NCBI GenBank assembly: GCA_027923505.1
Contig: BROI01000009.1
Coordinates: forward strand, 744,001 to 808,000
Reading direction: 5' to 3'
Length of the DNA: 64,000 nucleotides
From: Mayamaea pseudoterrestris
Taxonomy: Eukaryota > Bacillariophyta > Bacillariophyceae > Sellaphorales > Sellaphoraceae
The notes under the pieces were generated by a model that was not told the origin of the DNA, made no database searches, and saw only the letters and a program-made list of their open reading frames with translations. A program made the translations under genes and the position numbers. Shown here piece after piece: positions 8,494 to 60,500 of this stretch. Numbering within the stretch: position 1 is the stretch's first letter; every line of letters begins with the position of its first letter.

Positions 8494-8680
8494 TGACGCA
8501 GTTTTCACTGGCACTCGTTTCGTACTATTGCCTTGTGACGCAGTTTTCACTGGCACCCGTTTCATACTATTGCCTTGTGACGTAATTGACACTGGCACTC
8601 GTTTCATACTATTGCCTTGTGACGAAATTGACATTGACACTGGCACTATCGCTAGTGACGTACTGGACACTGGCGCCTTC
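8494..8680 (+). repeat. 42-bp tandem repeat array upstream of PP6
   Basis: Five copies of a 42-bp unit, starting TGACGCA at 8494, 8536 and 8578 (TGACGTA), 8620 (TGACGAA) and 8656 (TGACGTA; the preceding unit is 36 bp). The consensus begins TGACGYAGTTTTCACTGGC, continues with ACYCGTTTC and ends TACTATTGCCTTG. The last units degenerate. The array ends about 80 bp before the PP6 start codon. Related arrays lie at 38031 and 47224. Forty-two is a multiple of three, so translated frames across the array look repetitive; I treat these as chance frames. Confidence 0.9.
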
Positions 8681-37952: not shown

Positions 37953-38030
37953 GATGACAGGCTTCCATGTATAAGCAAGTTGCTCCCTTTTTTTAATGAT
38001 CGGTCAAGCAACCAGAACGACGAGATCGCA

Positions 38031-38265
38031 CGAAACGAGTGCCAGTGAAAACTACGTCCCAAGGCAATAGTACGAAACGGGTGCCAGTGATAACTACGTC
38101 AAAAGGCAATAGTACGAAACGGGTGCCAGTGATAACTACGTCAAAAGGCAATAGTACGAAACGAGTGCCAGTGAAAACTGCGTCACAGGGCAATAGTATG
38201 AAACGAGTGCCAGTGAAAACTGCGTCACTGGGCAAAGGGTCGAAACGTGCGCCAGCGTCGATTCG
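38031..38265 (-). repeat. 42-bp tandem repeat array upstream of TRMU; left edge of duplication
   Basis: Five clear 42-bp units, starting at 38031, 38073, 38115, 38157 and 38199 on the plus strand, and a degenerate sixth. Read on the minus strand (the TRMU direction), the units begin TGACGYAGTTWTCACTGGCA and match the array upstream of PP6. The second and third units are identical. The left end coincides to within 3 bp with the left breakpoint of the 10,090-bp duplication. Confidence 0.92.
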
Positions 38266-38384
38266 CAGTTGCGACCATGGGCTTCCCTTGCCAGTTGGGA
38301 CACTATTCAAGCTTGCATTTATAGCAACGACAAAAGCATGATAAGCCAGCCATTAAGAACTGCTATTTTACTTACTCATTTTCA

Positions 38385-39185
38385 TTATCCAAACATGTAC
38401 CACAAGGTAAAGCCCACGCAAGAAGCAATCACACCCGCGACAATCTTGTCGTCGCGCGATCGCTTTCGCCGAATCTGATCCACCAAATGGTTCAAACCGG
38501 GAATGTTAGTCGTCAATGTGCTCATGAGCGAGTTTGTTCCACGCAACGATCGACCCTGATGGTACAAATCGCTGCGAATTGAATCAGCTTGCCCAAGAAC
38601 ATTCGAGGCAGCGTTCATAGAATTTTCAATATGATTGCGTTCGCGAAGCAAATGGTCCATGGCTGGATCATGCGATCCGTTGCCTGCCAATGTGGAGCTA
38701 CTAGCAGCACCAGCCATGAGTTCCTGGCGTTCCTTGGTGCGGCGAACCGTCGCCGCGCACTTGTCAAAGTCGCCCTTGGAGTCAAGCAAGATTTCTCGAT
38801 ATCGCTTGACGGCGGCTTGATGCTGACTTGTTGAGGCCGACGCATTGAGACGACCGGAAATTAAATCTTGAAGGCGCTGAATGAGTCGTTGAATATCCGA
38901 CTGGAGGGTGGCCTCCTCATCCCAAAGAATCGATTGGCCTTCCTCGGCGCGAGCCAAGGAAAGGTTGGCATCCCACTGATTTAATTTTTGCGCCAACTGA
39001 CAAAATACAATGGATAGAAGCAAGATTAAAATTAACGTAGCAAGCGTATGCGATGCGATAAATCAAATGAGTTGCATGTACAGTAAAGTGTCGTAAAGAG
39101 TACTTACCTGTTGGTAGCGCGAAATCTTGTCCTCAAGCTGACGCTCCAGATTGGCGGCTTCGCGCTTCAATTGATCGAACGACAT
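38385..39185 (-). CDS. GOSR1: GOS1/GOSR1-type Golgi Qb-SNARE, copy A
   Basis: Two exons, 39185-39108 and 38996-38385, with a 111-bp intron (39107-38997, GTAAGT to TGTCAG), and 229 aa from the ATG at 39185 (MSFDQLKREAANLERQLEDK). The frame stays open upstream without an ATG, so I use this start. The N-terminal helix ISRYQQLAQKLNQWD and the middle helices match GOS28. The SNARE motif runs through LLRERNHIENSMNAASNVLG, then QADSIRSDLYHQGRSLRG, and the C-terminal anchor is KIVAGVIASCVGFTLWYMFG. GOS28 acts in ER-Golgi and intra-Golgi membrane fusion. Copy B is at 48475-49275. Confidence 0.9.
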
Positions 39186-39668
39186 GTCTCCGCCTTCCGA
39201 CGAATATTCACCGATGACTAGCGAGGATGAGGATGGTGGTGCCGATGAATGAGTCGTTTCCAGTCCTCGACGCTGGCGGAGGGCTTCCAAGTGACTCGTC
39301 GTGATGGTGGCGGTTCTTGTTGACGTTGACGCTTGTGCCTCACAATGGAAATTTGCGATAGTTCACGTGCGGAATGATGTTCTGCCTCTGTCTCACTAGC
39401 TTGCCAACTGACAGAGAGATCTATTTGCTAGTAAAGTTGGTAGCGAAGATGGAAAGGGGCGACTGCATGCATGATGATGCGATGACCATACCTTCCCTTG
39501 TCGTACCGGCAGCGACATTTCAGACGCGAAATGGGTCGTGCATCCCACGCGCAGTTCACATGAACCTGCTGAATCGACCCAATTGATGCCCAGGCAACTT
39601 TCTCCTTCCGTCGCTTCGTCGTCCAGATTACATATTGACCAAGCGAAAGATTCACAATACGTACGAAC
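39186..39668. promoter_or_regulatory. 483-bp divergent promoter between GOSR1 and the oxygenase-CTR fusion (copy A)
   Basis: Shared promoter region of the SNARE gene (-) and the fusion gene (+). The plus-strand frame from 39374 is open but resembles nothing known. I recognise no specific copper-response motif. An identical stretch lies at 49276-49758. Confidence 0.35.
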
Positions 39669-41704
39669 ATGATGATGAAATCTTTTACGCTGCTGGTAGC
39701 GTTGCAGAATATATTTTGCAGCACAGCAACTGCATCGTCAGACGGGGCAGATGCCGTCTACAGACCGCCGCTGTTTACCCTCTCGGATCTTCGGAATGGC
39801 CATCGGCTGGATGAACTGCGTTCGGTTATGAGCACGACGGGTTTGCTGCAAGTCTCGTTGGAAGAAAGTGACGTATCATCAGCGGGACTGGAGGTTCTCT
39901 GTCAATGCTCGAGCGTACTGTCTAAGGTTCCTGGAGTTGACTCGGTTACTTTAGCCGACGATTCGACGAGACGAACCTCGCTAGGTACGGCGACGGTTGG
40001 GAGTCGACCATTGCCGCTGCCGGAGGAATTGAGTAATGTCTGCGGGTCGGATGCAGTGATTTCAATGGAAGCAATACGCGATGAAGTTGCACTTGCTGCC
40101 GATGTTTTTCAAGCGGCATGGGATGGATTACTGCAGAGCGATTCCTCGTCGTTTAGAAAGTCAATGCCATTGCTAAAGAATAAGAATGGAATTGTATACG
40201 AATCGATGCAGCAGATCTCGCAAGCTTCGACGCACTTGGAGCACTTTCATTTATATGCCAAGCTTGGCGAACAGCATGAACAAGAAGAGCCAGCCTTTGC
40301 CCTCGACTGGCACACTGACGCTGGCTTGTTTCTAGCCTTTGTTCCAGCGCATAGTTGCGATGTTGATGGTCCAGAAGATGACTCATTTTATATCATGGAT
40401 ACCTTTGATAATCATCGAAAGAATGTCAAGTTTCATCCCAACGCCGTTGCAATCATGCTCGGCACTGGAGCGGAACATTGGCTGAACAATACAGTTTTGC
40501 GACACAAGGCAGCCCGGCATGCGGTGCAAATGCGCCCAGGACAGTCCAGAGCGTGGTATGGAATGAGTAAGTTGCTAATTGGATTGCAGTAATAGTTTGT
40601 TGAACGTACAGAGTGAATGAAATTGACATGTCATCATTTGCTTCTTTGTGCACAGTGCACCTCGTACCAGATGGTGCTATAATTCAGTCATCTCCGGAAC
40701 AAACCTTTGGCGATATGAAACAGAGCATGCGATATAACAAGGATCGCGGTTATTTGGAATCAGAAGGCGTTTCGATTGGCTGTGGTAGTGAGAGTGTGGA
40801 ACCTCTCGACGCTGCGATACAGTCGCTCGAATCATCTTCGATCCAAAGCACTGACCGACGACGACTCCAGCACGTTCAAAACGCGGACGCCTGCAACAAC
40901 TCGACCAACTTCTTTTGCTGGATGCAGTGCCTCGAAGTACCCGACTTTAAGCAAGCCGAAGGCTATTTGCGGGAAGGGTATTCGCTGTATTGTTTAGATC
41001 CAGCCACACTGGCAGCTTCCAGCAACCGCGTGTCGGCCGCTGTGGAGCCTTGCCAAGACGGTTACGTCCACAACGCATACTGCACTGGTTCATGGCAACC
41101 AACCGCCCCGGGTGTGACTGCCATTCCAGTGGCGACAAATGCATCGTCGCCATCATTGACTAATGAGCAATGGTGCTACGGAGCAACTTCCATGTATATG
41201 GACGGCTTTCACTGGCGCAATAGTGTTTGTGTCATTTACTTGTTTCCGCAGTGGATATTGTCGACACCGGGCAAGGTTGTTGGAGCAAGCATTGGGACGT
41301 TGGCATTTGGCGTTGGTTTGGAAAAGACGATTCACCACCGCCGACTTGTAGTTACCTCCATGAAGGCTGGTTACTATCGATTAGCAGCGTCAGCCTTTCT
41401 ATACGCCTTTCAGTTGACCATGGGGTACTTGCTGATGCTCATTATTATGACATACTCTGGTCCATTGTTTCTTTGTGTAATACTTGGTTTGGTTGGCGGA
41501 CACGTCTTGTTCAACGCCAAGGACGCACTGCTGGTGCCAAAGGGCGACGTTTGCGCTGCCAGGGAATGCGCCGAGGAGTGTCCACAAGATTGCCGCACCG
41601 AAGATAGTGAAATAGTCAAGGGATGCCCATGCGAACAAATTGAGGAGAATCAACGTGCTGGTGTTCCGGAGGGGATTACTCCGTGCTGCCAGAATACCCT
41701 GTAG
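39669..41704 (+). CDS. 2OG-Fe(II) oxygenase-like domain fused to CTR copper transporter, copy A
   Basis: Two exons, 39669-40566 and 40656-41704, with an 89-bp intron (GTAAGT to CACAG); the joined frame gives 648 aa and the family-like segment RAWYGMMHLVPDGAI. Residues 1-23 form a signal peptide. The oxygenase-like domain has HTD (H215, D217) in LDWHTDAGLFLAFVP, a distal His (H284) in RHAV, and R294 ten residues later, as in 2-oxoglutarate enzymes. A Cys-rich region (about 375-475) follows. The CTR domain has MYMDGFHW (479-486), MLIIM (560-564, the MxxxM motif) and GLVGG (577-581, GxxxG). A tail holds nine or more Cys, including GCPC and CC. The oxygenase domain would face the lumen or outside. 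The fusion depends on the intron. Confidence 0.82.
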
Positions 41705-42192
41705 TTGGGAATATATATACATAGTTACTTTTAGAAGCGTTACCATACGATATGCTTGGTGTCTGACCCCTTGACTATCCAGTTAGCTACTCTATAGGAT
41801 GTTTACATGCCTGGACCTAAATGAGGCGACCATCGCCAAAGAAGTTACTCCTTCACAATCGTCTTCAACACTTCGCACCTCAGCTTTCGATCGTGCATGA
41901 GTCAACGTCGCACCGCTCGGCCAGTGCCGGCTTGCGCGCAAGGTCATCAACAGTCGTCGCAGCGACAAAAGGTCGTGCGAGCAGGCATGCAACTTCCAAG
42001 TCGAGCAGTTCTTGTCGATGCTGTTATAATAAGAGAGAAAGTGAGAGATTGATTGATACAGTTAACCTACTAGTGAACGCGGAAGCAGCAATCAGCCGAG
42101 TAATCAATCATTGCAGCTGCTGACTTGCTGTCCACTGATTGCCATACGCTATCGCTCGAGTCTACTTTTATCATCAACCAGATTAGACGACG
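41705..42192. other. 488-bp gap between fusion gene and TPR gene (copy A)
   Basis: Contains the fusion gene 3' flank (TATATATACATAG) and the TPR gene promoter. No gene, RNA or array recognised. Duplicated at 51795-52282. Confidence 0.3.
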
Positions 42193-44715
42193 ATGAAACT
42201 CCTAGACCGTCTCCGAGGAGGCAGCGCCAAGAAGGAAAGCAAATCAGACGAGTTATTGCTGCTGCAGCATCAACCAACAACAACATTTGAAGACATTCCT
42301 TCCTCGCCAGATACGTCGCCTGCAACAACCGAAGACTTGTCGCCGCGCAATCACCACGAGAATGGCGGAGAAACCGACGAAAGTTATCCAAAGAGTCCTA
42401 AAGAAGGCACAAGCGGCAAGCATCATAATCAGCAACAATTTTCCTGGGGTTTGCGACGGAAACGCAAGGATGAGTCGCCGGTGCAGCAGGATTTGGTTGG
42501 TTGCAATAGCAGGAATCTTAATCAACCAACACTGTCCGTTCCCAATACTCCGCAGAATCGCGACATTTACATTGAGGACGATCATGGCAGCCAGAAATCA
42601 CTGCTTCAGACACCATTGGATGATTCGGCTGCCTTGCCGCAGCAACGATCGTCTCATTTAAAGGCAAAGAATTTGTTTGTCTCGACGATTGCGCCGGTTG
42701 TGGAACTTCCGTCTACGAAAGCTGCTTCGGTGTTTGCGAGACTTGCTCATCCTGCGAGTCAAAAGTCGACAGATGCAACTGAAGACGAAACTTACGACGA
42801 AGCTGCTTGGGATTATGATTTAGACATCCCTCTGTTCGTCGATGAGGAAGACTTTCCGGTTATTCATCGCATTCTCATGATGCAGACACCCAAACGATTG
42901 GTGCTGCCTAAACCAAGCCCATCCAACTCGCACGAGCAGGACAGTGAGCGCAACATTGTAGCTCGCGCCGTGGCTGCTTTGGATAAGGCGGGTAATGACC
43001 TTTTTGCGCAAGGACGCTATGAAGATGCCTACCTGCGGTATGAGCGGGCGCTATTGTTGAAGAAGCGCACGTTGGAAGTGGACGAGCAAGAGAATGGGGA
43101 GCATGATGAACAATTAGTGCATGCCGCAAATGGCACGGGTAAATTAAATTCAGCTTCACTGAATACGATAAATGAACTGGAGCAGGCGCAAATGAATGCA
43201 AAGGCTGCCAATAGTAAGGAGCAAAAGGCGACGATTCTCGCATCGGTTGCCACTTCAATCAACAATATTACCTATATTAAGCAACGCACTGGACAAGCCA
43301 CGACGGAAGAAACAATGGCATCGTACTTGAAAAGTCTACAGATTAAGCGAGACATCTTGGGACCAGATCACTTGTCGGTTGGAAAAACGCTCAACAATAT
43401 TGGGAGCGTTTTTTACTTGAAGCGCGAGTACGAACCGGCGCTGACTGCCTACAAGGATGCATATCGCATTATGGAACAAGCGTTGGGTGTGGATCATTTG
43501 GATGTTGGCACGGTGGTGTCCAATGTTGGTGATGTTTACTTTGCACTGGGCGACAAGGCGCAAGCATTGGAGCATTATAATCGTGCGCTCGATGTACGAT
43601 GGTCCAAGTTGAAATCGCAGGACCAAAAGGTGGTACGGTTGATGCAGCAAGTAGCGCTGCTCGAGACGGGTGTGCAGCCGAGCATGGATGCTTTGGCCAA
43701 GGAAGGTGTGAGTGATCCTGCTGAAACTGAAGTAATTCGAGAAATGGAGCGGCACCAGATGTCAGTCTTTATCGAGGATATACAGAAGCTGCAAGAGGAA
43801 GTCAAGGACGATATGCGATATTTCGATTTGGCCGAGCGGCAGTTGGAGATCGACATGGTGAAGGACCGCATGCGCATTTTCCGGGAGATGCGCGAAATAT
43901 ACAATGCATCCGAAGATGATTTCAATATTGAGGATTCACTCCGCGAGTCAATGAAAATTATACCCGGTCTTGCCGCACAGTTGAAACGGGTGCAGAATCA
44001 CGAGTATGATGATGTATATCGCGAACCGCTGGACAATCCAGATGCCATTGATGAAGCTCCAGTTGTGCAAAGTGACGGCAAAGTGCAAATAGACTCTGCA
44101 ATTAATGGAATGTATTCGGGTGGTGACAAGGAATCAGAGACGACAAAAACTGACGATGCAATACAACCAGGCAGCGCATACAGCGAGATTGTTTTGGCTA
44201 CACCCCAAAAGGGTGCACCTTTGATGGAAGTGGCGTGTGGGATAGCAGAAACCGACAGACAGGTAGAAAATGAGCATCCGCAAACTATACCAATTCCTGT
44301 ATCAATGTCCGGAACCCTGCCGACACCAGAATCATCATTCGGAATGGGATCGGTGTTGCAGAACGCAAATGATGGTGTAAAAGGAGATGTTGCGACGACA
44401 CGATCTTCGGAGGATAGTTTAGTCAAAGCAAACACTTTGGAGGATCGCAAAGCGGCTTTGAACGATGTTAGAAATCGGTTGGATCGATTGAGACGGGAGA
44501 GAGATCAAAGAGTCACATGGGAGGTCAAGGAGCGCTTAGAAGCGAGTGAGCCTCCACAGGAGACGAAGCGGCGGTCTTACATGTTCCCCACAATTGCCTC
44601 TGCCGCGAAAGCAATGACGCCGAAGAAACTACGGAGAGTGCACAGCGGCTTCTATTGGAACAGAAAGAGTACTCCGAAAAATCAGCCTAGCATACCAACC
44701 ACGGCCGAGGAGTGA
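42193..44715 (+). CDS. Kinesin-light-chain-like TPR protein, copy A
   Basis: Single exon, 840 aa, ATG at 42193. The N-terminal 250 residues are disordered, Ser/Pro/Asp-rich, with a basic patch (KLLDRLRGGSAKKESKSDEL). TPR units occur at about 258-290 (RAVAALDKAGNDLFAQGRYE) and 375-470, with KLC-like loops: LGPDHLSVGKTLNNIGSVFY, LGVDHLDVGTVVSNVGDVYF, DKAQALEHYNRALDVRW. The remainder is coiled coil (about 510-600) and a disordered tail with KKLRRVHSGFYWNRKS. It is probably a scaffold; nothing points to an enzyme. It is not the same protein as the TPR at 5704, but the repeats are of the same type. Copy B is at 52283. Confidence 0.85.
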   Translation: MKLLDRLRGGSAKKESKSDELLLLQHQPTTTFEDIPSSPDTSPATTEDLSPRNHHENGGETDESYPKSPKEGTSGKHHNQQQFSWGLRRKRKDESPVQQDLVGCNSRNLNQPTLSVPNTPQNRDIYIEDDHGSQKSLLQTPLDDSAALPQQRSSHLKAKNLFVSTIAPVVELPSTKAASVFARLAHPASQKSTDATEDETYDEAAWDYDLDIPLFVDEEDFPVIHRILMMQTPKRLVLPKPSPSNSHEQDSERNIVARAVAALDKAGNDLFAQGRYEDAYLRYERALLLKKRTLEVDEQENGEHDEQLVHAANGTGKLNSASLNTINELEQAQMNAKAANSKEQKATILASVATSINNITYIKQRTGQATTEETMASYLKSLQIKRDILGPDHLSVGKTLNNIGSVFYLKREYEPALTAYKDAYRIMEQALGVDHLDVGTVVSNVGDVYFALGDKAQALEHYNRALDVRWSKLKSQDQKVVRLMQQVALLETGVQPSMDALAKEGVSDPAETEVIREMERHQMSVFIEDIQKLQEEVKDDMRYFDLAERQLEIDMVKDRMRIFREMREIYNASEDDFNIEDSLRESMKIIPGLAAQLKRVQNHEYDDVYREPLDNPDAIDEAPVVQSDGKVQIDSAINGMYSGGDKESETTKTDDAIQPGSAYSEIVLATPQKGAPLMEVACGIAETDRQVENEHPQTIPIPVSMSGTLPTPESSFGMGSVLQNANDGVKGDVATTRSSEDSLVKANTLEDRKAALNDVRNRLDRLRRERDQRVTWEVKERLEASEPPQETKRRSYMFPTIASAAKAMTPKKLRRVHSGFYWNRKSTPKNQPSIPTTAEE

Positions 44716-44858
44716 AAAGCCAACAGTTATTGGGTCTTGTATATTATGTAGCACAGTCTTTTTATATCAAAACCTTGTGCAGCTTTTTAGTACGCTTCTT
44801 ATTAGATTGATATAATAGTATGTAAGGGAAGTTACGTCTGACTACCGGTCGCAACACG

Positions 44859-47063
44859 CTAATTGTTCCGACGGCGCTTACCTACGCGAGCAGCTACATC
44901 AACGTCGTCCGCCTTCCGTTTTGCCGGAAATCCAAGCATAGACGAAACTTTGTCAATTGTCCAACCAATCCAGCCAAGCTGCTCGTCGTTGGCAGTCTCT
45001 AGGGCGTGAAAATGTTCATCGAGGCTTACCACCTTTTCTTGTTTTGAGAAACGTGTCTGGAGCGCCTGCTTAATGATGTTGCCGTGATCCTGGAGTAGTG
45101 CGGCCGCATCATTACCGGTAGATCCGTTGCTGGACGCATCACGACGAACGACCGCCGCAACAATGAATGTAGTGTCGTCTACCCAGACAATGTTAAATTC
45201 AACTTTTCGTCCTGATGCATCTGACAAGTCAGAGCAGCAGCGAACAATATCACGTGTGGCAACTGAAGGGTCGATTCCGCTCACATGATAAGCTGCACTG
45301 GAGATCATTCCACGTTTGAGTGCATCAGCTAAAGAGTTCTGAAGATCCAATGTAAACATGGACATTTGAAAAATCTTGTTGCGGCCAAAGTACTCGCGTT
45401 GATCGCATGCGAGCGCCAGTGGGTATTCGCTGTCGCCTTGCAAATGCATCATGTCGCCAAGAATTGGATTGGAGTTCATCGCACCTTCAGACCGTTCCCG
45501 AACAATGTGCTTGCAAAGTCCAATGTAGATCGACCCAGTCATGAACGCGTCGTACGCCGCTTCGTGTTCCTGCTGTGAATCTTCTCGTGTTATAATGCTT
45601 TTCAACACCGATGGGTTTTCGCGAACCACGCCATTGTATAAGTTTGACAGATTAGTCTGCTCGTTTGTCCAAACAGCAGTGTGCTCCGTTGAGATCACCT
45701 TGGTATCGTAAACGACTGGGAAGTAGCTCGTGATCATTTCCTTGCAAACAGTGAGTGAGTCTGGGAGCGTCGGCGAAGCAAAGTGCGTCATGAGAAACAA
45801 GATATCCATAAACCCATTGTGAACAACAAGTGGCACTCTTCGTCCCTGCCACGCTGGTTCAACCGCATCAAAATCGACAGTGTCAAAGGATGGCGCAAAC
45901 AAGGGTGACTGCATCGAGAGCGGTGCACCGCGACATGCTCGCGACAGCGCTTCAAACACCCTCCACATGCCGACATTCAAAATCATCTTGCTCCAAGCCT
46001 CGCGCTGAAGTTTCACCTTGCGCTCCGCCTTTTCCAACTCGGAAAGACGCAACACGCGAATGTGCCCTCCTCCGCCATTTTCCAAAATCAAGTCGGGGTA
46101 CTCTCGCTCGATATTTTCGTACAGCGCCCGCCGCAAAAATGCATTGCAGGAGGGCAGCAATAGCGTCGTGGTAGACTGGTTGAACATTCCACCATTGTCG
46201 AGCCATTCTCGCAAGGTTGCCATGGTGGTCGCAAAAAATCGAACGTCATCCGTTCGAGTCAGTTCCACGGTACGGCGCAAGGTTTGCTCCACTGACTGGG
46301 ATGATCGCTTGGTTTGCTGTTGCTGCTGCTCCTCTTGGTGCTTGATTGCATAATCGGCAATGATTTGCTCTGCCCGGTCGCCTGTAACGTAATTAACGCC
46401 TTGCTTGGTCCACAGGTCAAAGCTCATATTGTGCTCGTTCAAAAAGGCAACGCTGGATGGATTGAGAACAACCTCTCTCGAAGCAGAAGCATCATCCCAG
46501 CGAGCTGACGACGACGGAAACATGTAAAAGTTGTAGGAGCGAACAGTCCATGTAGGTTCCGTAGCATCAATGGCTTGATTCGCCGATGGCAGAGTCTTGG
46601 CCGCAGCAGCAACAGCAGCTGCAACATCGTCCTCCATTTGTCCTTCCTCTTCCTCGTCATCGCTGGGCGCCTCTGCTTTGACCGGAGACGCCACTATATT
46701 CGAATGAAACAATGAAACTCCTAATTGTATAATGCTGTATCGTTCCGGCGCTCGTTTGAGGTCAGGATATGTAATTTTGGGCGGCAAATCTTTGCGGGGT
46801 GGACCACGACGTGATCCGTTTGGAACTTGAATACCTGTCATTTCCTCGTCAATCGCGACAAAAGCAGCCGTCTGCAAATGATGAATCAAATCATTCGATT
46901 GCTGTGGAAGCAGAATGTAGACAACAAGTGTAAGTTTACAGCAAAGTCGGACAATTACTGCAAGCGCAATTGTTCGTTCTAAAGTCATTGCATCAAATTT
47001 CATCGAGCACTAGCTGCAGCAACCTCATACCTCGATAAAATTCTCCTTGGTTACGTTCACCAT
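44859..47063 (-). CDS. PARN: Poly(A)-specific ribonuclease (PARN), copy A
   Basis: Two exons, 47063-47031 (11 codons, MVNVTKENFIE) and 46901-44859, with a 129-bp intron (GTATGA to CCACAG) and 691 aa. The DEDD nuclease signature is complete: AAFVAIDEEMTGIQV (D29, E31), VPLVVHNGFMDILFLMTHFA for the third acidic residue, and HEAAYDAFMTGSIYIGLC for the fourth with its nearby His. The order and spacing match CAF1/PARN exonucleases. The long minus-strand frame would extend upstream through the intron without the short exon, but only the splice gives the conserved NF-x-E start. PARN shortens poly(A) tails and matures small RNAs. Copy B is at 54949-57153. Its promoter holds a 42-bp array. Confidence 0.9.
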
Positions 47064-47506
47064 CTTGTGCTGGCTGTATAGTCTACGACTATGGATGCAG
47101 GCAGGATTCTCAGATGTGAGTAGCGGGTCCAACCACTCCGCTTTGGATCGTCGCATCGAAAATCCTCCCGGGCTTACCGTTACGACTTGCCTAGGGGTAC
47201 TCTTTGTCAAACAGTATTTAATTAGGCAATAGTAGGAAACGAGTGCCAGTGAAAACTGCGTCATAAGGCAATATTAAAAAACGAGTGCCAGTGAAAACTG
47301 CGTCACAAGGCAATAGTTTGAAACGAGTGCCAGTGAAAACTACGTCATGCTTATATATGCCTACAACGCCAAGGTGCCAGCGCAAAAAATTGTGCGCGGG
47401 CGTCTTATTCATTCGTCTACTCGCACGTATGTACAGTATGTATTGACCTTACATCTGCATGAGAATAGAGCATAGTAATCAAAGAAGATAGAGAGAATCG
47501 AGAAAT
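47064..47506. promoter_or_regulatory. 443-bp divergent promoter PARN/Cu-ATPase (copy A)
   Basis: Separates PARN (-) from the truncated ATPase (+) and contains a three-unit 42-bp array at 47224-47350. The region is repeated unchanged at 57154-57596, so both ATPase copies have the same upstream region. Confidence 0.45.
47224..47350 (-). repeat. 42-bp repeat array between PARN and ATPase (copy A)
   Basis: Three units. On the minus strand each reads TGACG(T/C)AGTTTTCACTGGCA, as at PP6 and TRMU. The array is 160 bp upstream of PARN in PARN orientation, and about 155 bp before the ATPase start in the opposite orientation. Confidence 0.88.
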
Positions 47507-48160
47507 ATGCAGAGCAATTTTTTCGGTAGGCTCAACACTCCTCCAGACGACAATCAGCCAGCTGTAGCTGCTGCTTCACTGCAAACGACGGAGACTACTG
47601 TTGCAAACGACAAGGACTTGGAAGAGGCGCAGCAAAACTCGTTGCTGCACATGCAGTATCAATTCGCACTCCATGGCCTGACGTGCAGCGCCTGTTCCGG
47701 AGCCGTTGAGGAAGCTGTCACGACACTTCTCATGGAGAGTTACAACAACAATCAACGCAAGGAGAATGAAGAAGCACCAAGTAACGGCGACGGCCCTCCG
47801 ACGATTCAAGTTTCTCTCTTTCCGGAAGCGACTCTGCGAGTAAAAAATATTCTGAAAGGACTTGTTTCGCCGTATCAAATCATTGAGACGATTCAAGACA
47901 TTGGGTTTGACGCGGAACTCACCAGTGAACAGGCTGCAGACACACTTAACACAGCTGCATCTTCCACTCTGCGAGTCGTTCTGTTTACGTTTACGAATGC
48001 AGAGACTGCTGAAAGGGCGTTTGCATCTTTGACGAAAAATCCCAAGGTTCAAAGCGTTCATCCAGTCGAAGATCAGCCGCAAGAGACCAAGCGAAATTGC
48101 AGTTATTTTGTTTGGAAGCACGAAACGAGTGCCAGTGAAAACTACGTCCCAAGGCAATAG
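47507..48160 (+). pseudogene. Truncated copper P1B-ATPase copy (N-terminal HMA domain only)
   Basis: Residues 1-204 are identical to the N-terminus of the full ATPase at 57597. At 48118 the sequence jumps to the 42-bp array, and the frame adds HETSASENYVPRQ before a stop. The remaining frame of 217 codons still encodes the whole metal-binding head: [17 protein letters not shown] with C60-x2-C63, and a second, CxxC-less HMA-like fold up to VHPVEDQPQ. All membrane, actuator and phosphorylation domains are missing. The promoter region is an exact copy of the intact gene's. It could be a dead fragment, or it could make a free copper-binding domain like small copper chaperones; the sequence alone cannot decide. 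Confidence 0.88.
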
Positions 48161-48355
48161 TACGAAACGGGTGCCAGTGATAACTACGTCAAAAGGCAAT
48201 AGTACGAAACGGGTGCCAGTGATAACTACGTCAAAAGGCAATAGTACGAAACGAGTGCCAGTGAAAACTGCGTCACAGGGCAATAGTATGAAACGAGTGC
48301 CAGTGAAAACTGCGTCACTGGGCAAAGGGTCGAAACGTGCGCCAGCGTCGATTCG
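48121..48355 (-). repeat. 42-bp repeat array, duplicated copy at the junction
   Basis: Exact copy of the array at 38031-38265. Here it no longer precedes TRMU; it follows the truncated ATPase and lies 3' of the second SNARE gene. The gap 48161-48474 contains nothing else I recognise. Confidence 0.92.
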
Positions 48356-48474
48356 CAGTTGCGACCATGGGCTTCCCTTGCCAGTTGGGACACTATTCAA
48401 GCTTGCATTTATAGCAACGACAAAAGCATGATAAGCCAGCCATTAAGAACTGCTATTTTACTTACTCATTTTCA

Positions 48475-49275
48475 TTATCCAAACATGTACCACAAGGTAA
48501 AGCCCACGCAAGAAGCAATCACACCCGCGACAATCTTGTCGTCGCGCGATCGCTTTCGCCGAATCTGATCCACCAAATGGTTCAAACCGGGAATGTTAGT
48601 CGTCAATGTGCTCATGAGCGAGTTTGTTCCACGCAACGATCGACCCTGATGGTACAAATCGCTGCGAATTGAATCAGCTTGCCCAAGAACATTCGAGGCA
48701 GCGTTCATAGAATTTTCAATATGATTGCGTTCGCGAAGCAAATGGTCCATGGCTGGATCATGCGATCCGTTGCCTGCCAATGTGGAGCTACTAGCAGCAC
48801 CAGCCATGAGTTCCTGGCGTTCCTTGGTGCGGCGAACCGTCGCCGCGCACTTGTCAAAGTCGCCCTTGGAGTCAAGCAAGATTTCTCGATATCGCTTGAC
48901 GGCGGCTTGATGCTGACTTGTTGAGGCCGACGCATTGAGACGACCGGAAATTAAATCTTGAAGGCGCTGAATGAGTCGTTGAATATCCGACTGGAGGGTG
49001 GCCTCCTCATCCCAAAGAATCGATTGGCCTTCCTCGGCGCGAGCCAAGGAAAGGTTGGCATCCCACTGATTTAATTTTTGCGCCAACTGACAAAATACAA
49101 TGGATAGAAGCAAGATTAAAATTAACGTAGCAAGCGTATGCGATGCGATAAATCAAATGAGTTGCATGTACAGTAAAGTGTCGTAAAGAGTACTTACCTG
49201 TTGGTAGCGCGAAATCTTGTCCTCAAGCTGACGCTCCAGATTGGCGGCTTCGCGCTTCAATTGATCGAACGACAT
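48475..49275 (-). CDS. GOSR1: GOS1/GOSR1-type Golgi Qb-SNARE, copy B
   Basis: Exact counterpart of the gene at 38385-39185: exons 49275-49198 and 49086-48475, same 111-bp intron, 229 aa with no amino acid change. The SNARE motif and C-terminal anchor are intact. The two copies share the whole promoter, so both should be expressed if the duplication is real. Confidence 0.9.
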
Positions 49276-49758
49276 GTCTCCGCCTTCCGACGAATATTCA
49301 CCGATGACTAGCGAGGATGAGGATGGTGGTGCCGATGAATGAGTCGTTTCCAGTCCTCGACGCTGGCGGAGGGCTTCCAAGTGACTCGTCGTGATGGTGG
49401 CGGTTCTTGTTGACGTTGACGCTTGTGCCTCACAATGGAAATTTGCGATAGTTCACGTGCGGAATGATGTTCTGCCTCTGTCTCACTAGCTTGCCAACTG
49501 ACAGAGAGATCTATTTGCTAGTAAAGTTGGTAGCGAAGATGGAAAGGGGCGACTGCATGCATGATGATGCGATGACCATACCTTCCCTTGTCGTACCGGC
49601 AGCGACATTTCAGACGCGAAATGGGTCGTGCATCCCACGCGCAGTTCACATGAACCTGCTGAATCGACCCAATTGATGCCCAGGCAACTTTCTCCTTCCG
49701 TCGCTTCGTCGTCCAGATTACATATTGACCAAGCGAAAGATTCACAATACGTACGAAC

Positions 49759-51794
49759 ATGATGATGAAATCTTTTACGCTGCTGGTAGCGTTGCAGAAT
49801 ATATTTTGCAGCACAGCAACTGCATCGTCAGACGGGGCAGATGCCGTCTACAGACCGCCGCTGTTTACCCTCTCGGATCTTCGGAATGGCCATCGGCTGG
49901 ATGAACTGCGTTCGGTTATGAGCACGACGGGTTTGCTGCAAGTCTCGTTGGAAGAAAGTGACGTATCATCAGCGGGACTGGAGGTTCTCTGTCAATGCTC
50001 GAGCGTACTGTCTAAGGTTCCTGGAGTTGACTCGGTTACTTTAGCCGACGATTCGACGAGACGAACCTCGCTAGGTACGGCGACGGTTGGGAGTCGACCA
50101 TTGCCGCTGCCGGAGGAATTGAGTAATGTCTGCGGGTCGGATGCAGTGATTTCAATGGAAGCAATACGCGATGAAGTTGCACTTGCTGCCGATGTTTTTC
50201 AAGCGGCATGGGATGGATTACTGCAGAGCGATTCCTCGTCGTTTAGAAAGTCAATGCCATTGCTAAAGAATAAGAATGGAATTGTATACGAATCGATGCA
50301 GCAGATCTCGCAAGCTTCGACGCACTTGGAGCACTTTCATTTATATGCCAAGCTTGGCGAACAGCATGAACAAGAAGAGCCAGCCTTTGCCCTCGACTGG
50401 CACACTGACGCTGGCTTGTTTCTAGCCTTTGTTCCAGCGCATAGTTGCGATGTTGATGGTCCAGAAGATGACTCATTTTATATCATGGATACCTTTGATA
50501 ATCATCGAAAGAATGTCAAGTTTCATCCCAACGCCGTTGCAATCATGCTCGGCACTGGAGCGGAACATTGGCTGAACAATACAGTTTTGCGACACAAGGC
50601 AGCCCGGCATGCGGTGCAAATGCGCCCAGGACAGTCCAGAGCGTGGTATGGAATGAGTAAGTTGCTAATTGGATTGCAGTAATAGTTTGTTGAACGTACA
50701 GAGTGAATGAAATTGACATGTCATCATTTGCTTCTTTGTGCACAGTGCACCTCGTACCAGATGGTGCTATAATTCAGTCATCTCCGGAACAAACCTTTGG
50801 CGATATGAAACAGAGCATGCGATATAACAAGGATCGCGGTTATTTGGAATCAGAAGGCGTTTCGATTGGCTGTGGTAGTGAGAGTGTGGAACCTCTCGAC
50901 GCTGCGATACAGTCGCTCGAATCATCTTCGATCCAAAGCACTGACCGACGACGACTCCAGCACGTTCAAAACGCGGACGCCTGCAACAACTCGACCAACT
51001 TCTTTTGCTGGATGCAGTGCCTCGAAGTACCCGACTTTAAGCAAGCCGAAGGCTATTTGCGGGAAGGGTATTCGCTGTATTGTTTAGATCCAGCCACACT
51101 GGCAGCTTCCAGCAACCGCGTGTCGGCCGCTGTGGAGCCTTGCCAAGACGGTTACGTCCACAACGCATACTGCACTGGTTCATGGCAACCAACCGCCCCG
51201 GGTGTGACTGCCATTCCAGTGGCGACAAATGCATCGTCGCCATCATTGACTAATGAGCAATGGTGCTACGGAGCAACTTCCATGTATATGGACGGCTTTC
51301 ACTGGCGCAATAGTGTTTGTGTCATTTACTTGTTTCCGCAGTGGATATTGTCGACACCGGGCAAGGTTGTTGGAGCAAGCATTGGGACGTTGGCATTTGG
51401 CGTTGGTTTGGAAAAGACGATTCACCACCGCCGACTTGTAGTTACCTCCATGAAGGCTGGTTACTATCGATTAGCAGCGTCAGCCTTTCTATACGCCTTT
51501 CAGTTGACCATGGGGTACTTGCTGATGCTCATTATTATGACATACTCTGGTCCATTGTTTCTTTGTGTAATACTTGGTTTGGTTGGCGGACACGTCTTGT
51601 TCAACGCCAAGGACGCACTGCTGGTGCCAAAGGGCGACGTTTGCGCTGCCAGGGAATGCGCCGAGGAGTGTCCACAAGATTGCCGCACCGAAGATAGTGA
51701 AATAGTCAAGGGATGCCCATGCGAACAAATTGAGGAGAATCAACGTGCTGGTGTTCCGGAGGGGATTACTCCGTGCTGCCAGAATACCCTGTAG
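49759..51794 (+). CDS. 2OG-Fe(II) oxygenase-like/CTR copper transporter fusion, copy B
   Basis: Exact counterpart of 39669-41704: exons 49759-50656 and 50746-51794, with the intron at 50657-50745, 648 aa. HTD, distal His, MYMDGFHW, MxxxM and GxxxG are unchanged. The promoter (49276-49758) is also identical, so copy number of this putative copper importer would double if the duplication is real. Confidence 0.82.
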
Positions 51795-52282
51795 TTGGGA
51801 ATATATATACATAGTTACTTTTAGAAGCGTTACCATACGATATGCTTGGTGTCTGACCCCTTGACTATCCAGTTAGCTACTCTATAGGATGTTTACATGC
51901 CTGGACCTAAATGAGGCGACCATCGCCAAAGAAGTTACTCCTTCACAATCGTCTTCAACACTTCGCACCTCAGCTTTCGATCGTGCATGAGTCAACGTCG
52001 CACCGCTCGGCCAGTGCCGGCTTGCGCGCAAGGTCATCAACAGTCGTCGCAGCGACAAAAGGTCGTGCGAGCAGGCATGCAACTTCCAAGTCGAGCAGTT
52101 CTTGTCGATGCTGTTATAATAAGAGAGAAAGTGAGAGATTGATTGATACAGTTAACCTACTAGTGAACGCGGAAGCAGCAATCAGCCGAGTAATCAATCA
52201 TTGCAGCTGCTGACTTGCTGTCCACTGATTGCCATACGCTATCGCTCGAGTCTACTTTTATCATCAACCAGATTAGACGACG

Positions 52283-54805
52283 ATGAAACTCCTAGACCGT
52301 CTCCGAGGAGGCAGCGCCAAGAAGGAAAGCAAATCAGACGAGTTATTGCTGCTGCAGCATCAACCAACAACAACATTTGAAGACATTCCTTCCTCGCCAG
52401 ATACGTCGCCTGCAACAACCGAAGACTTGTCGCCGCGCAATCACCACGAGAATGGCGGAGAAACCGACGAAAGTTATCCAAAGAGTCCTAAAGAAGGCAC
52501 AAGCGGCAAGCATCATAATCAGCAACAATTTTCCTGGGGTTTGCGACGGAAACGCAAGGATGAGTCGCCGGTGCAGCAGGATTTGGTTGGTTGCAATAGC
52601 AGGAATCTTAATCAACCAACACTGTCCGTTCCCAATACTCCGCAGAATCGCGACATTTACATTGAGGACGATCATGGCAGCCAGAAATCACTGCTTCAGA
52701 CACCATTGGATGATTCGGCTGCCTTGCCGCAGCAACGATCGTCTCATTTAAAGGCAAAGAATTTGTTTGTCTCGACGATTGCGCCGGTTGTGGAACTTCC
52801 GTCTACGAAAGCTGCTTCGGTGTTTGCGAGACTTGCTCATCCTGCGAGTCAAAAGTCGACAGATGCAACTGAAGACGAAACTTACGACGAAGCTGCTTGG
52901 GATTATGATTTAGACATCCCTCTGTTCGTCGATGAGGAAGACTTTCCGGTTATTCATCGCATTCTCATGATGCAGACACCCAAACGATTGGTGCTGCCTA
53001 AACCAAGCCCATCCAACTCGCACGAGCAGGACAGTGAGCGCAACATTGTAGCTCGCGCCGTGGCTGCTTTGGATAAGGCGGGTAATGACCTTTTTGCGCA
53101 AGGACGCTATGAAGATGCCTACCTGCGGTATGAGCGGGCGCTATTGTTGAAGAAGCGCACGTTGGAAGTGGACGAGCAAGAGAATGGGGAGCATGATGAA
53201 CAATTAGTGCATGCCGCAAATGGCACGGGTAAATTAAATTCAGCTTCACTGAATACGATAAATGAACTGGAGCAGGCGCAAATGAATGCAAAGGCTGCCA
53301 ATAGTAAGGAGCAAAAGGCGACGATTCTCGCATCGGTTGCCACTTCAATCAACAATATTACCTATATTAAGCAACGCACTGGACAAGCCACGACGGAAGA
53401 AACAATGGCATCGTACTTGAAAAGTCTACAGATTAAGCGAGACATCTTGGGACCAGATCACTTGTCGGTTGGAAAAACGCTCAACAATATTGGGAGCGTT
53501 TTTTACTTGAAGCGCGAGTACGAACCGGCGCTGACTGCCTACAAGGATGCATATCGCATTATGGAACAAGCGTTGGGTGTGGATCATTTGGATGTTGGCA
53601 CGGTGGTGTCCAATGTTGGTGATGTTTACTTTGCACTGGGCGACAAGGCGCAAGCATTGGAGCATTATAATCGTGCGCTCGATGTACGATGGTCCAAGTT
53701 GAAATCGCAGGACCAAAAGGTGGTACGGTTGATGCAGCAAGTAGCGCTGCTCGAGACGGGTGTGCAGCCGAGCATGGATGCTTTGGCCAAGGAAGGTGTG
53801 AGTGATCCTGCTGAAACTGAAGTAATTCGAGAAATGGAGCGGCACCAGATGTCAGTCTTTATCGAGGATATACAGAAGCTGCAAGAGGAAGTCAAGGACG
53901 ATATGCGATATTTCGATTTGGCCGAGCGGCAGTTGGAGATCGACATGGTGAAGGACCGCATGCGCATTTTCCGGGAGATGCGCGAAATATACAATGCATC
54001 CGAAGATGATTTCAATATTGAGGATTCACTCCGCGAGTCAATGAAAATTATACCCGGTCTTGCCGCACAGTTGAAACGGGTGCAGAATCACGAGTATGAT
54101 GATGTATATCGCGAACCGCTGGACAATCCAGATGCCATTGATGAAGCTCCAGTTGTGCAAAGTGACGGCAAAGTGCAAATAGACTCTGCAATTAATGGAA
54201 TGTATTCGGGTGGTGACAAGGAATCAGAGACGACAAAAACTGACGATGCAATACAACCAGGCAGCGCATACAGCGAGATTGTTTTGGCTACACCCCAAAA
54301 GGGTGCACCTTTGATGGAAGTGGCGTGTGGGATAGCAGAAACCGACAGACAGGTAGAAAATGAGCATCCGCAAACTATACCAATTCCTGTATCAATGTCC
54401 GGAACCCTGCCGACACCAGAATCATCATTCGGAATGGGATCGGTGTTGCAGAACGCAAATGATGGTGTAAAAGGAGATGTTGCGACGACACGATCTTCGG
54501 AGGATAGTTTAGTCAAAGCAAACACTTTGGAGGATCGCAAAGCGGCTTTGAACGATGTTAGAAATCGGTTGGATCGATTGAGACGGGAGAGAGATCAAAG
54601 AGTCACATGGGAGGTCAAGGAGCGCTTAGAAGCGAGTGAGCCTCCACAGGAGACGAAGCGGCGGTCTTACATGTTCCCCACAATTGCCTCTGCCGCGAAA
54701 GCAATGACGCCGAAGAAACTACGGAGAGTGCACAGCGGCTTCTATTGGAACAGAAAGAGTACTCCGAAAAATCAGCCTAGCATACCAACCACGGCCGAGG
54801 AGTGA
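52283..54805 (+). CDS. Kinesin-light-chain-like TPR protein, copy B
   Basis: Identical in translation to the 840-aa protein at 42193-44715; single exon, same start and stop context. The upstream gap (51795-52282) and downstream gap are identical as well. Confidence 0.85.
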   Translation: MKLLDRLRGGSAKKESKSDELLLLQHQPTTTFEDIPSSPDTSPATTEDLSPRNHHENGGETDESYPKSPKEGTSGKHHNQQQFSWGLRRKRKDESPVQQDLVGCNSRNLNQPTLSVPNTPQNRDIYIEDDHGSQKSLLQTPLDDSAALPQQRSSHLKAKNLFVSTIAPVVELPSTKAASVFARLAHPASQKSTDATEDETYDEAAWDYDLDIPLFVDEEDFPVIHRILMMQTPKRLVLPKPSPSNSHEQDSERNIVARAVAALDKAGNDLFAQGRYEDAYLRYERALLLKKRTLEVDEQENGEHDEQLVHAANGTGKLNSASLNTINELEQAQMNAKAANSKEQKATILASVATSINNITYIKQRTGQATTEETMASYLKSLQIKRDILGPDHLSVGKTLNNIGSVFYLKREYEPALTAYKDAYRIMEQALGVDHLDVGTVVSNVGDVYFALGDKAQALEHYNRALDVRWSKLKSQDQKVVRLMQQVALLETGVQPSMDALAKEGVSDPAETEVIREMERHQMSVFIEDIQKLQEEVKDDMRYFDLAERQLEIDMVKDRMRIFREMREIYNASEDDFNIEDSLRESMKIIPGLAAQLKRVQNHEYDDVYREPLDNPDAIDEAPVVQSDGKVQIDSAINGMYSGGDKESETTKTDDAIQPGSAYSEIVLATPQKGAPLMEVACGIAETDRQVENEHPQTIPIPVSMSGTLPTPESSFGMGSVLQNANDGVKGDVATTRSSEDSLVKANTLEDRKAALNDVRNRLDRLRRERDQRVTWEVKERLEASEPPQETKRRSYMFPTIASAAKAMTPKKLRRVHSGFYWNRKSTPKNQPSIPTTAEE

Positions 54806-54948
54806 AAAGCCAACAGTTATTGGGTCTTGTATATTATGTAGCACAGTCTTTTTATATCAAAACCTTGTGCAGCTTTTTAGTACGCTTCTTATTAGATTGA
54901 TATAATAGTATGTAAGGGAAGTTACGTCTGACTACCGGTCGCAACACG

Positions 54949-57153
54949 CTAATTGTTCCGACGGCGCTTACCTACGCGAGCAGCTACATCAACGTCGTCC
55001 GCCTTCCGTTTTGCCGGAAATCCAAGCATAGACGAAACTTTGTCAATTGTCCAACCAATCCAGCCAAGCTGCTCGTCGTTGGCAGTCTCTAGGGCGTGAA
55101 AATGTTCATCGAGGCTTACCACCTTTTCTTGTTTTGAGAAACGTGTCTGGAGCGCCTGCTTAATGATGTTGCCGTGATCCTGGAGTAGTGCGGCCGCATC
55201 ATTACCGGTAGATCCGTTGCTGGACGCATCACGACGAACGACCGCCGCAACAATGAATGTAGTGTCGTCTACCCAGACAATGTTAAATTCAACTTTTCGT
55301 CCTGATGCATCTGACAAGTCAGAGCAGCAGCGAACAATATCACGTGTGGCAACTGAAGGGTCGATTCCGCTCACATGATAAGCTGCACTGGAGATCATTC
55401 CACGTTTGAGTGCATCAGCTAAAGAGTTCTGAAGATCCAATGTAAACATGGACATTTGAAAAATCTTGTTGCGGCCAAAGTACTCGCGTTGATCGCATGC
55501 GAGCGCCAGTGGGTATTCGCTGTCGCCTTGCAAATGCATCATGTCGCCAAGAATTGGATTGGAGTTCATCGCACCTTCAGACCGTTCCCGAACAATGTGC
55601 TTGCAAAGTCCAATGTAGATCGACCCAGTCATGAACGCGTCGTACGCCGCTTCGTGTTCCTGCTGTGAATCTTCTCGTGTTATAATGCTTTTCAACACCG
55701 ATGGGTTTTCGCGAACCACGCCATTGTATAAGTTTGACAGATTAGTCTGCTCGTTTGTCCAAACAGCAGTGTGCTCCGTTGAGATCACCTTGGTATCGTA
55801 AACGACTGGGAAGTAGCTCGTGATCATTTCCTTGCAAACAGTGAGTGAGTCTGGGAGCGTCGGCGAAGCAAAGTGCGTCATGAGAAACAAGATATCCATA
55901 AACCCATTGTGAACAACAAGTGGCACTCTTCGTCCCTGCCACGCTGGTTCAACCGCATCAAAATCGACAGTGTCAAAGGATGGCGCAAACAAGGGTGACT
56001 GCATCGAGAGCGGTGCACCGCGACATGCTCGCGACAGCGCTTCAAACACCCTCCACATGCCGACATTCAAAATCATCTTGCTCCAAGCCTCGCGCTGAAG
56101 TTTCACCTTGCGCTCCGCCTTTTCCAACTCGGAAAGACGCAACACGCGAATGTGCCCTCCTCCGCCATTTTCCAAAATCAAGTCGGGGTACTCTCGCTCG
56201 ATATTTTCGTACAGCGCCCGCCGCAAAAATGCATTGCAGGAGGGCAGCAATAGCGTCGTGGTAGACTGGTTGAACATTCCACCATTGTCGAGCCATTCTC
56301 GCAAGGTTGCCATGGTGGTCGCAAAAAATCGAACGTCATCCGTTCGAGTCAGTTCCACGGTACGGCGCAAGGTTTGCTCCACTGACTGGGATGATCGCTT
56401 GGTTTGCTGTTGCTGCTGCTCCTCTTGGTGCTTGATTGCATAATCGGCAATGATTTGCTCTGCCCGGTCGCCTGTAACGTAATTAACGCCTTGCTTGGTC
56501 CACAGGTCAAAGCTCATATTGTGCTCGTTCAAAAAGGCAACGCTGGATGGATTGAGAACAACCTCTCTCGAAGCAGAAGCATCATCCCAGCGAGCTGACG
56601 ACGACGGAAACATGTAAAAGTTGTAGGAGCGAACAGTCCATGTAGGTTCCGTAGCATCAATGGCTTGATTCGCCGATGGCAGAGTCTTGGCCGCAGCAGC
56701 AACAGCAGCTGCAACATCGTCCTCCATTTGTCCTTCCTCTTCCTCGTCATCGCTGGGCGCCTCTGCTTTGACCGGAGACGCCACTATATTCGAATGAAAC
56801 AATGAAACTCCTAATTGTATAATGCTGTATCGTTCCGGCGCTCGTTTGAGGTCAGGATATGTAATTTTGGGCGGCAAATCTTTGCGGGGTGGACCACGAC
56901 GTGATCCGTTTGGAACTTGAATACCTGTCATTTCCTCGTCAATCGCGACAAAAGCAGCCGTCTGCAAATGATGAATCAAATCATTCGATTGCTGTGGAAG
57001 CAGAATGTAGACAACAAGTGTAAGTTTACAGCAAAGTCGGACAATTACTGCAAGCGCAATTGTTCGTTCTAAAGTCATTGCATCAAATTTCATCGAGCAC
57101 TAGCTGCAGCAACCTCATACCTCGATAAAATTCTCCTTGGTTACGTTCACCAT
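54949..57153 (-). CDS. PARN: Poly(A)-specific ribonuclease (PARN), copy B
   Basis: Identical to the gene at 44859-47063: exons 57153-57121 and 56991-54949, 129-bp intron, 691 aa with all four DEDD acidic residues. The promoter array (57314-57440) is also duplicated. Confidence 0.9.
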
Positions 57154-57313
57154 CTTGTGCTGGCTGTATAGTCTACGACTATGGATGCAGGCAGGATTCT
57201 CAGATGTGAGTAGCGGGTCCAACCACTCCGCTTTGGATCGTCGCATCGAAAATCCTCCCGGGCTTACCGTTACGACTTGCCTAGGGGTACTCTTTGTCAA
57301 ACAGTATTTAATT

Positions 57314-57440
57314 AGGCAATAGTAGGAAACGAGTGCCAGTGAAAACTGCGTCATAAGGCAATATTAAAAAACGAGTGCCAGTGAAAACTGCGTCACAAGG
57401 CAATAGTTTGAAACGAGTGCCAGTGAAAACTACGTCATGC
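57314..57440 (-). repeat. 42-bp repeat array between PARN and Cu-ATPase (copy B)
   Basis: Exact copy of the three-unit array at 47224-47350, here in front of the complete ATPase gene. The promoter interval is 57154-57596. Confidence 0.88.
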
Positions 57441-57596
57441 TTATATATGCCTACAACGCCAAGGTGCCAGCGCAAAAAATTGTGCGCGGGCGTCTTATTC
57501 ATTCGTCTACTCGCACGTATGTACAGTATGTATTGACCTTACATCTGCATGAGAATAGAGCATAGTAATCAAAGAAGATAGAGAGAATCGAGAAAT

Positions 57597-60500
57597 ATGC
57601 AGAGCAATTTTTTCGGTAGGCTCAACACTCCTCCAGACGACAATCAGCCAGCTGTAGCTGCTGCTTCACTGCAAACGACGGAGACTACTGTTGCAAACGA
57701 CAAGGACTTGGAAGAGGCGCAGCAAAACTCGTTGCTGCACATGCAGTATCAATTCGCACTCCATGGCCTGACGTGCAGCGCCTGTTCCGGAGCCGTTGAG
57801 GAAGCTGTCACGACACTTCTCATGGAGAGTTACAACAACAATCAACGCAAGGAGAATGAAGAAGCACCAAGTAACGGCGACGGCCCTCCGACGATTCAAG
57901 TTTCTCTCTTTCCGGAAGCGACTCTGCGAGTAAAAAATATTCTGAAAGGACTTGTTTCGCCGTATCAAATCATTGAGACGATTCAAGACATTGGGTTTGA
58001 CGCGGAACTCACCAGTGAACAGGCTGCAGACACACTTAACACAGCTGCATCTTCCACTCTGCGAGTCGTTCTGTTTACGTTTACGAATGCAGAGACTGCT
58101 GAAAGGGCGTTTGCATCTTTGACGAAAAATCCCAAGGTTCAAAGCGTTCATCCAGTCGAAGATCAGCCGCAAGAGACCAAGCGAAATTGCAGTTATTTTG
58201 TTTGGAAGCCAAAGGGACGACGAAAATCATCAAAATACTTGGAGCTAGGCGAAGACAAAGGAGAGAGATTAGAAAGTACAGAGTTTGTAAGCTGCACGCT
58301 CCGTGTAACCTTTGACGAAACGTCGGGGATGGGCGTTCGAACGCTTTTGCGTGAGTTGCAAGAGCAGTTGGGATTCAAAAATTCACATGACGACGACATT
58401 GAAGTCCAAGACGCGCTGGGCTTTCAATGTAATCAAGAGGCGGTTGAAGCGCGGCGACGCGCAGAGGTTGCGCGAGTGCGTTGCGATTTTTTCTTTGCGC
58501 TGGCGCTCGCTGTTCCGGTTGGAGTTGTTTCCATGTTGCTTGGAATGATACCAAGAACCATGATGCTTGTCCATACTTATCCCTTTTGGCGGATTACTTG
58601 GCTTGAATTTATCACGTGGCTACTAACGACGCCGATTCAGTTCATTTCCGGCGCTCGCTTTTATCGAGAATCCTACTACTCGATCAAGTCGCGACACTTT
58701 GGAATGGGTTTCCTCATCTGCCTTGGTACTAGTGCGGCATACTTTTACTCGGTGGCTGCCACATTATACAACGCCATGCAGCCAGAAGGCACTGAGATGC
58801 TTGCCACGGCGTTTGAAACGTCGGCCTTTCTGATAACCTTTGTGATTCTCGGAAAATATCTGGAGCTCAAGGCAAAGTCTCGAACGTCGCGAGCCATTGC
58901 GAGTCTGGCGCAGCTCACTCCTCAGTCGGCAACCCTTGTAGGCACATGGAATCTTGATCTTGATCGAGAGGATTCCTGCGTCGAGGAGAGGATTAATTCT
59001 GTTTTAATACAACGTGACGATGTATTGTTGGTACGACCTGGCGAAAATGTTCCAATGGATGGCATTGTGGTGCATGGTGCCTCATCCATTGACGAAAGCA
59101 TGTTGACCGGCGAGTCTTTACCCATCGTCAAGCAGGCTGGTGACAGCGTTATTGGTGGAACTGTGAACCTGGATGGAGCGATCCGAGTTCGGGTAACAAA
59201 GGTGGGCAGTGATACAGCCATGGCGCAGATCATTCGCTTGATCGAATCGGCGCAGTCTACCAAGGCTCCGGTAAGCTTTAAAGAAGTGCTTATTCGCTTT
59301 TCTTCTATAATGAGAACTAAGTCTTATCCCGAATTGCATTTTTTATGCAGATTCAAGAATACGCCGACTGGTTGTCGGCACGTTTTGTGCCCGTGGTTCT
59401 GCTCATCTCTGTTTGTACCTTCATTCTTTGGGCAATCCTTCTGAATACAGCGGCACTTGATCACGTAAAAGGTAGCTGGTCGTATTTGGACCATGGGTTG
59501 AATGATTGGACGCTTCCACTCATATTCGCGATTTCAGTGCTGGTGATTTCCTGTCCATGTGCGCTGGGCCTGGCCACACCGGTAAGTCTTATTCGGATTA
59601 TGGTTGGTTCCAAGAATGATCGTCCTATAAATGTCTTATTGAAATCAACGTGTTTGTTTACAGACGGCAATAATGGTTGGATCAGGTGTAGGAGCCCGAA
59701 ACGGAATTCTTTTGAAAAGTGGCGAAGCGATTGAGCAATCGCGTGAGCTTAGGGCAATCGTGTTCGATAAAACAGGCACGTTGACCTTTGGCCGGCCATC
59801 AGTGCAAGACGTGTTACTCTTGTCGGATCGTTGTGCTACAATTTTCGACTCTTTTGTCGATGAAAAGGTTATGTCGCAAGTGCAGACAGCTGGTGGCGCA
59901 ACTATAATTGAGTCAAGCGTGAACCGTATCAAGACATTGGAGAACATATTTTTTCTGGCTGCAAGCGCGGAGCATGGCAGCGAACATCCACTCGCAAAAG
60001 GTGAGAGGAGTTCTATGGCACCTGACTTCTGTTTGAAAGGACGCGCGTCTGACATGTCTTATTTTCAGGAATTATCGGCAAGGCAGCAGACCTGGGCATT
60101 GGCGATGGACTTTCGCGACCATTAATTCGCCCGGATGACTTCGAGAATGAACCGGGCGCTGGTATACGCTGCACTATTAGTGGGCATCGCATTCATATTG
60201 GTAACCGACGCAGTTTGAAGACGAATGTTATTGCGTTCGGGACAGATGCCATGGACGCAATGGAATACCTAGAAACGAAGGGGCAAACAGCGGTCATTGT
60301 GTCTGTTGACGGTCAAGCCGAAGCAGTGATTGGTCTTATTGACAAGGCTAAGGACGAAGCGGCAACAACTGTTAATGTATTGAGACGGGGACTTGGAATT
60401 GACGTTTACATGCTGACTGGTGACAATATTCGGACTGCAAGAGTTGTCGCATCGGAGGTTGGTATCGCTCCGTCGAATGTGATTGCCGATGTGCTTCCAG

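Follow-up and report, generated by a model that had tools for sequence, protein, structure and literature searches.

Non-recurrent tandem duplications in human rearrangements, which the available text of PMC2583991 assigns to FoSTeS/MMBIR or NHEJ, are direct, have one novel junction and carry short homology there, with junction microhomology of two to five bases at template-switch joins. The other described system that comes close is an error of assembly. In the excerpted text of PMC9516828, false homotype duplications consist of adjacent copies without haplotype differences, and false duplications are most commonly marked by a gap between the copies, and sometimes by an unsupported joint or by low depth. 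Here we describe two adjacent, directly oriented copies in a 64,000-nucleotide stretch of Mayamaea pseudoterrestris (the window, meaning the whole stretch of DNA that was analysed), which resemble both kinds of system. The human cases differ from ours in their host, since the present one is in a compact genome, and ours is simple, without inserted or rearranged pieces. Among the literature matches listed, the titles and abstract openings hold no description of the present duplication or of its 42-bp repeat, and in the available text of the telomere-to-telomere Phaeodactylum paper (PMC9266582) the word "tandem" does not occur, while "duplicat" occurs once, with reference to telomeres.

By self-BLAST and direct comparison of the window, 38028-48119 and 48118-58209 form a single exact run of 10,092 bases at an offset of 10,090, with 0 mismatches and 0 gaps between the copies, and the repeat comparison agrees. 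The second-longest identical run at that offset is 8 bases. An identity of this length cannot be a product of chance, and with the two copies adjacent and in direct orientation the locus is a tandem segmental duplication. The window does not contain any N. Its G+C content of 48.9%, gene density and gene content would fit a diatom, and a search for plastid presequences gave a single, uninformative hit.

38028-48117, no strand: duplication unit 1, 10,090 bp, an exact match to 48118-58207
48118-58207, no strand: duplication unit 2, with identity continuing two bases more, to 58209
48118-48119, no strand: shared GC at the novel junction, common to the left edge (38028-38029) and the right edge (58208-58209)

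The first-pass annotation had placed a 10,090-bp head-to-tail repeat at these coordinates and had described its units as identical and free of indels, and all of this agrees with the exact run. Its count of four genes complete inside the unit and a fifth, the Cu-ATPase, cut is borne out by the open reading frames and Pfam matches. It had read the repeat as a recent head-to-tail duplication, and that is still the best reading, most likely an ordinary and very young event. It had also named the right alternatives (a young event, gene conversion or the assembler), which sequence alone cannot separate. We consider it probable, at roughly 0.64, that this is a real and very recent duplication, direct and in tandem, in the compact nuclear genome of a eukaryote, with one break at a minisatellite array edge, one in the Cu-ATPase gene, and a two-base join. 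We infer the presence of the arrangement in the DNA of the cell, its mechanism and any effect.

Gene identities rest on Pfam domain matches, and the names GOSR1, KLC-like and PARN come from the first-pass annotation. The matches to V-SNARE_C, Ctr, TPR_12, CAF1 and E1-E2_ATPase exceed the curated cut-offs.

36387-38003, minus strand: tRNA methyl transferase-type gene (Pfam E 5.1e-48)
38385-39185 (copy 48475-49275), minus strand: SNARE gene, GOSR1-like (V-SNARE_C E 1.8e-10)
39669-41704 (copy 49759-51794), plus strand: apparent fusion of a 2OG-oxygenase-like protein and a Ctr copper transporter (Ctr E 8.4e-13)
42193-44715 (copy 52283-54805), plus strand: TPR protein (TPR_12 E 4.7e-21)
44859-47003 (copy 54949-57093), minus strand: CAF1-family ribonuclease, PARN-like (CAF1 E 8.7e-66)
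47507-48160, plus strand: truncated Cu-ATPase copy, 204 native residues and a 13-residue tail from the minisatellite
57597-61316, plus strand: apparently whole Cu-ATPase gene with several exons, spanning the right edge at 58209 (E1-E2_ATPase E 1.3e-32)

The SNARE gene has a probable first exon encoding MSFDQLKR. In the fusion gene, a proposed 89-base intron (40567-40655) joins the upstream open reading frame to the Ctr frame and keeps the frame open, giving 658 residues when counted from the start of the ORF, and an alternative acceptor at 40670 (a 104-base intron) likewise leaves it open. The oxygenase half has no Pfam match at E 0.001 (2OG-FeII_Oxy is sub-threshold, at E 0.0023 and 18.7 bits against a cut-off of 23), and phmmer against solved structures found no relative of it up to E 1. 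A Cys-containing tail is present on the putative 2OG-oxygenase-like/Ctr fusion (39669-41704, 49759-51794). Pattern searches with the nuclease protein gave 1 match in viral_contigs and 14 in genome_contigs, and those with the Ctr half gave 4 in viral_contigs; none was confirmed, and these viral or prokaryotic collections have little bearing on a eukaryote. Outside the unit, an FTR1 iron permease match at 28955-29962 (E 1.1e-7, 31.9 bits against a Pfam cut-off of 25.3) points to a further metal transporter, with about 10 kb between it and the Ctr gene. The window has 0 tRNAs by ARAGORN (bacterial code) and 0 Rfam RNAs.

With hyphens setting off the shared bases, the left edge reads GAGATC-GC-ACGAAACG, the inner junction TTTGGAA-GC-ACGAAACG, and the right edge TTTGGAA-GC-CAAAGGG, so that GC are the only bases common to all three and the overlap is two bases. 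When up to 200,000 random position pairs were sampled from the first 37 kb of the window, 0.16 of them overlapped by at least 2 bases, and the observed overlap is therefore compatible with short-homology joining and no proof of it. The left edge lies between the tRNA methyl transferase-type gene and the SNARE gene. The only inverted repeat near the edges is a 10-base pair on the left, its arms separated by 330 bases; the right edge has none.

The Cu-ATPase frame continues unbroken across the right edge at 58209 (ORF 57582-59444), whereas at the inner junction at 48118 it is cut after residue 204 and followed by 13 added residues and a stop. Because the frame passes through the right edge intact but is interrupted at the inner junction, and because a metal-binding site precedes the ATPase in the usual domain order, the inner junction is, judging by these two features, the new join and the right edge old sequence. 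No alignment with a relative extends across residue 204, the best stretches of the solved relatives listed starting at residue 267 or later. The new join, the two-base homology, the 42-bp minisatellite at the left edge and the truncated Cu-ATPase product are additions to the first-pass annotation.

Three arrays of one 42-bp family are found in the non-redundant window.

38030-38255 (copy 48120-48345), plus strand: 42-bp array at the unit's left edge, five good units at 38030-38239 and then a decayed tail
47214-47348 (copy 57304-57438), plus strand: second 42-bp array, within the unit, in the spacer that separates the divergent genes for the CAF1-family nuclease and the Cu-ATPase
8491-8641, minus strand: third 42-bp array, outside the unit, of the same family on the opposite strand

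The five good units of the left-edge array match the consensus at 41, 39, 39, 40 and 35 of 42 positions, compared with 21 for the next 42 bases and 14 for the preceding 42. Within the two-base ambiguity (38028-38030), the first base of the duplicated unit is the first base of this array. Only 30 of the 53,908 non-redundant positions lie 2 bases or less from one of the six array edges, and the chance that one of two breakpoints falls at an array edge is about 0.0011, a post hoc figure for one event. Compared with shuffled DNA, the array shows little or no gain in folding (z -1.47 on the plus strand and 0.50 on the minus strand), which leaves the idea that it is a strong hairpin former unsupported, and since it has no notable single-strand fold, it is only its position that marks it as fragile. 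A coding role for the arrays is likewise unsupported, short of full exclusion: each of the six frames of the inner array (47214-47348) is interrupted by stops, and the open frames, one in 8491-8641 and two in 38030-38255, have no Met ahead of the array in frame. In a repeat with a 42-base unit, moreover, a frame that is open in one unit will of itself remain open in the next.

Judged by the open reading frames, all three arrays are intergenic and lie upstream of a gene start. They contain 3, 4 and 3 TGACGT/C hexamers (in 8491-8641, 38030-38255 and 47214-47348, respectively), all in the coding orientation of a single neighbouring gene downstream, which for 47214-47348 is the nuclease, with the divergent Cu-ATPase on the opposite strand. 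This is 10 hexamers in 512 array bases, against 1.4 per kb elsewhere, an excess that is the direct result of tandem repetition. The available text of PMC11142338 reports TGACGT/C as a target of bZIP11 in Phaeodactylum. A 21-base array pattern was searched for in viral_contigs and genome_contigs, with 0 matches in each; as viral or prokaryotic collections, these say little about a eukaryote.

In the origin that we propose, one break would have occurred at the left edge of the 42-bp minisatellite (38028-38030) and the other within the Cu-ATPase coding region (58208-58210), and the two shared bases may have mediated the join, either when a stalled fork switched template (FoSTeS/MMBIR) or through end joining of sister chromatids or homologues. 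Four whole genes would thereby have been copied, with one apparently whole Cu-ATPase left at the right and a 217-residue N-terminal fragment created. Template switching or end joining fits the anatomy best, because the junction homology is two bases and there is no long repeat at both edges; FoSTeS/MMBIR and end joining leave a few shared bases at most and no long edge homology, as here, and two bases are not diagnostic. Non-allelic homologous recombination (NAHR) between minisatellite arrays was considered as the direct cause and rejected, since the right edge is in coding sequence outside any array, and the second array is set back from that edge by about 770 bases, within the unit.

A serious rival, though in our judgement a less likely one, is that the assembly placed two contigs one after the other without trimming an overlap of 10,092 bases, and so falsely doubled a single sequence. 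Such an overlap would give the same perfect identity over 10 kb, one edge does fall at a repeat, where assemblies presumably tend to break, and false duplications are described as widespread in the excerpted text of PMC9516828. The junction, however, is without N, in which it differs from a false homotype duplication, and an array of 226 bases should not break long-read contigs. The main source of false duplications is, according to that same excerpt, haplotype divergence, and the available text of PMC6604790 gives a heterozygosity of 0.9% for Phaeodactylum. Two haplotypes at this value, which may not be that of the host, should show about 91 differences, homozygosity at the locus aside, against the 0 observed, so that two haplotypes placed in tandem (a false heterotype duplication) are unlikely.

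For the real and very young duplication that we prefer, the absence of differences also gives a sense of age. The base substitution rate in Phaeodactylum tricornutum is 4.77e-10 per site per generation (PMC6604790, available text). At this rate, zero differences place the event under about 3.1e5 generations ago (95% level), a figure that indicates scale only, the rate possibly not being that of the host, and that is void if gene conversion acted. Tandem copies readily undergo gene conversion, and an older real duplication could have been kept identical by ongoing conversion between its copies. Conversion normally leaves some sites unconverted, chiefly near the ends, whereas here the copies show 0 differences over the full 10,092 bases, from edge to edge and through intergenic DNA and arrays alike, and no such process is needed; we regard this history as highly improbable.

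If the young duplication is real, a gene block has been caught before divergence, with its junction mapped and a partial gene newly made, this chromosome copy carries four genes twice, and any influence of dosage on copper handling and on mRNA decay is directly testable. The doubled dosage of a copper importer and of PARN, which the first-pass annotation had claimed, is something that we can only infer. If it is false, the assembly contains four genes and part of a fifth one time too many. The minisatellite at the breakpoint offers a checkable idea of where such duplications begin. A much broader proposal, that the edges of dispersed promoter-side 42-bp arrays are recurrent breakpoints for young tandem duplications genome-wide and that a new copper-binding protein, in the form of a free N-terminus of the Cu-ATPase, and the additional copper importer amount to an incipient copper-dosage adaptation, is the least likely of all and would surprise us.

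The truncated Cu-ATPase copy is an open frame with a predicted product of 217 residues, which retains the upstream region and one CxxC site (CSAC). The frameshift in E. coli CopA yields a stand-alone copper chaperone from the N-terminus of a Cu-ATPase. Like that product, the present N-terminal fragment with a CxxC could exist alone; unlike it, the fragment would arise by DNA duplication, ends in a chance 13-residue tail, and is predicted from sequence. Pfam HMA scores 17.8 bits on the fragment against a cut-off of 24.8, across 21 residues only, and single-sequence structure models, built for the fragment and for the N-terminus as a whole, are of low confidence (mean pLDDT 42.7 and 36.1). In these poor models the cut appears to fall between strands of a second ferredoxin-like stretch, which would be left incomplete. 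Because the HMA score is under the cut-off and the models have low pLDDT, a chaperone-like role for the fragment is speculation. A sub-threshold match to PF23387 across the fragment junction (E 0.00058, 20.2 bits, cut-off 25.6) was taken as chance.

In the apparently whole Cu-ATPase gene, the P-type motifs CPC (59552), DKTGT (59766), TGDN (60416) and GDGVND (60563) are spread across two frames, a pattern that fits an intron-containing gene, and its solved relatives carry the names Copper-transporting ATPase HMA4 and Copper-transporting ATPase 2. The last part of the region, at 61068-61316 (ORF 60642-61316), is a Cys-rich stretch, which we take to be metallothionein-like.
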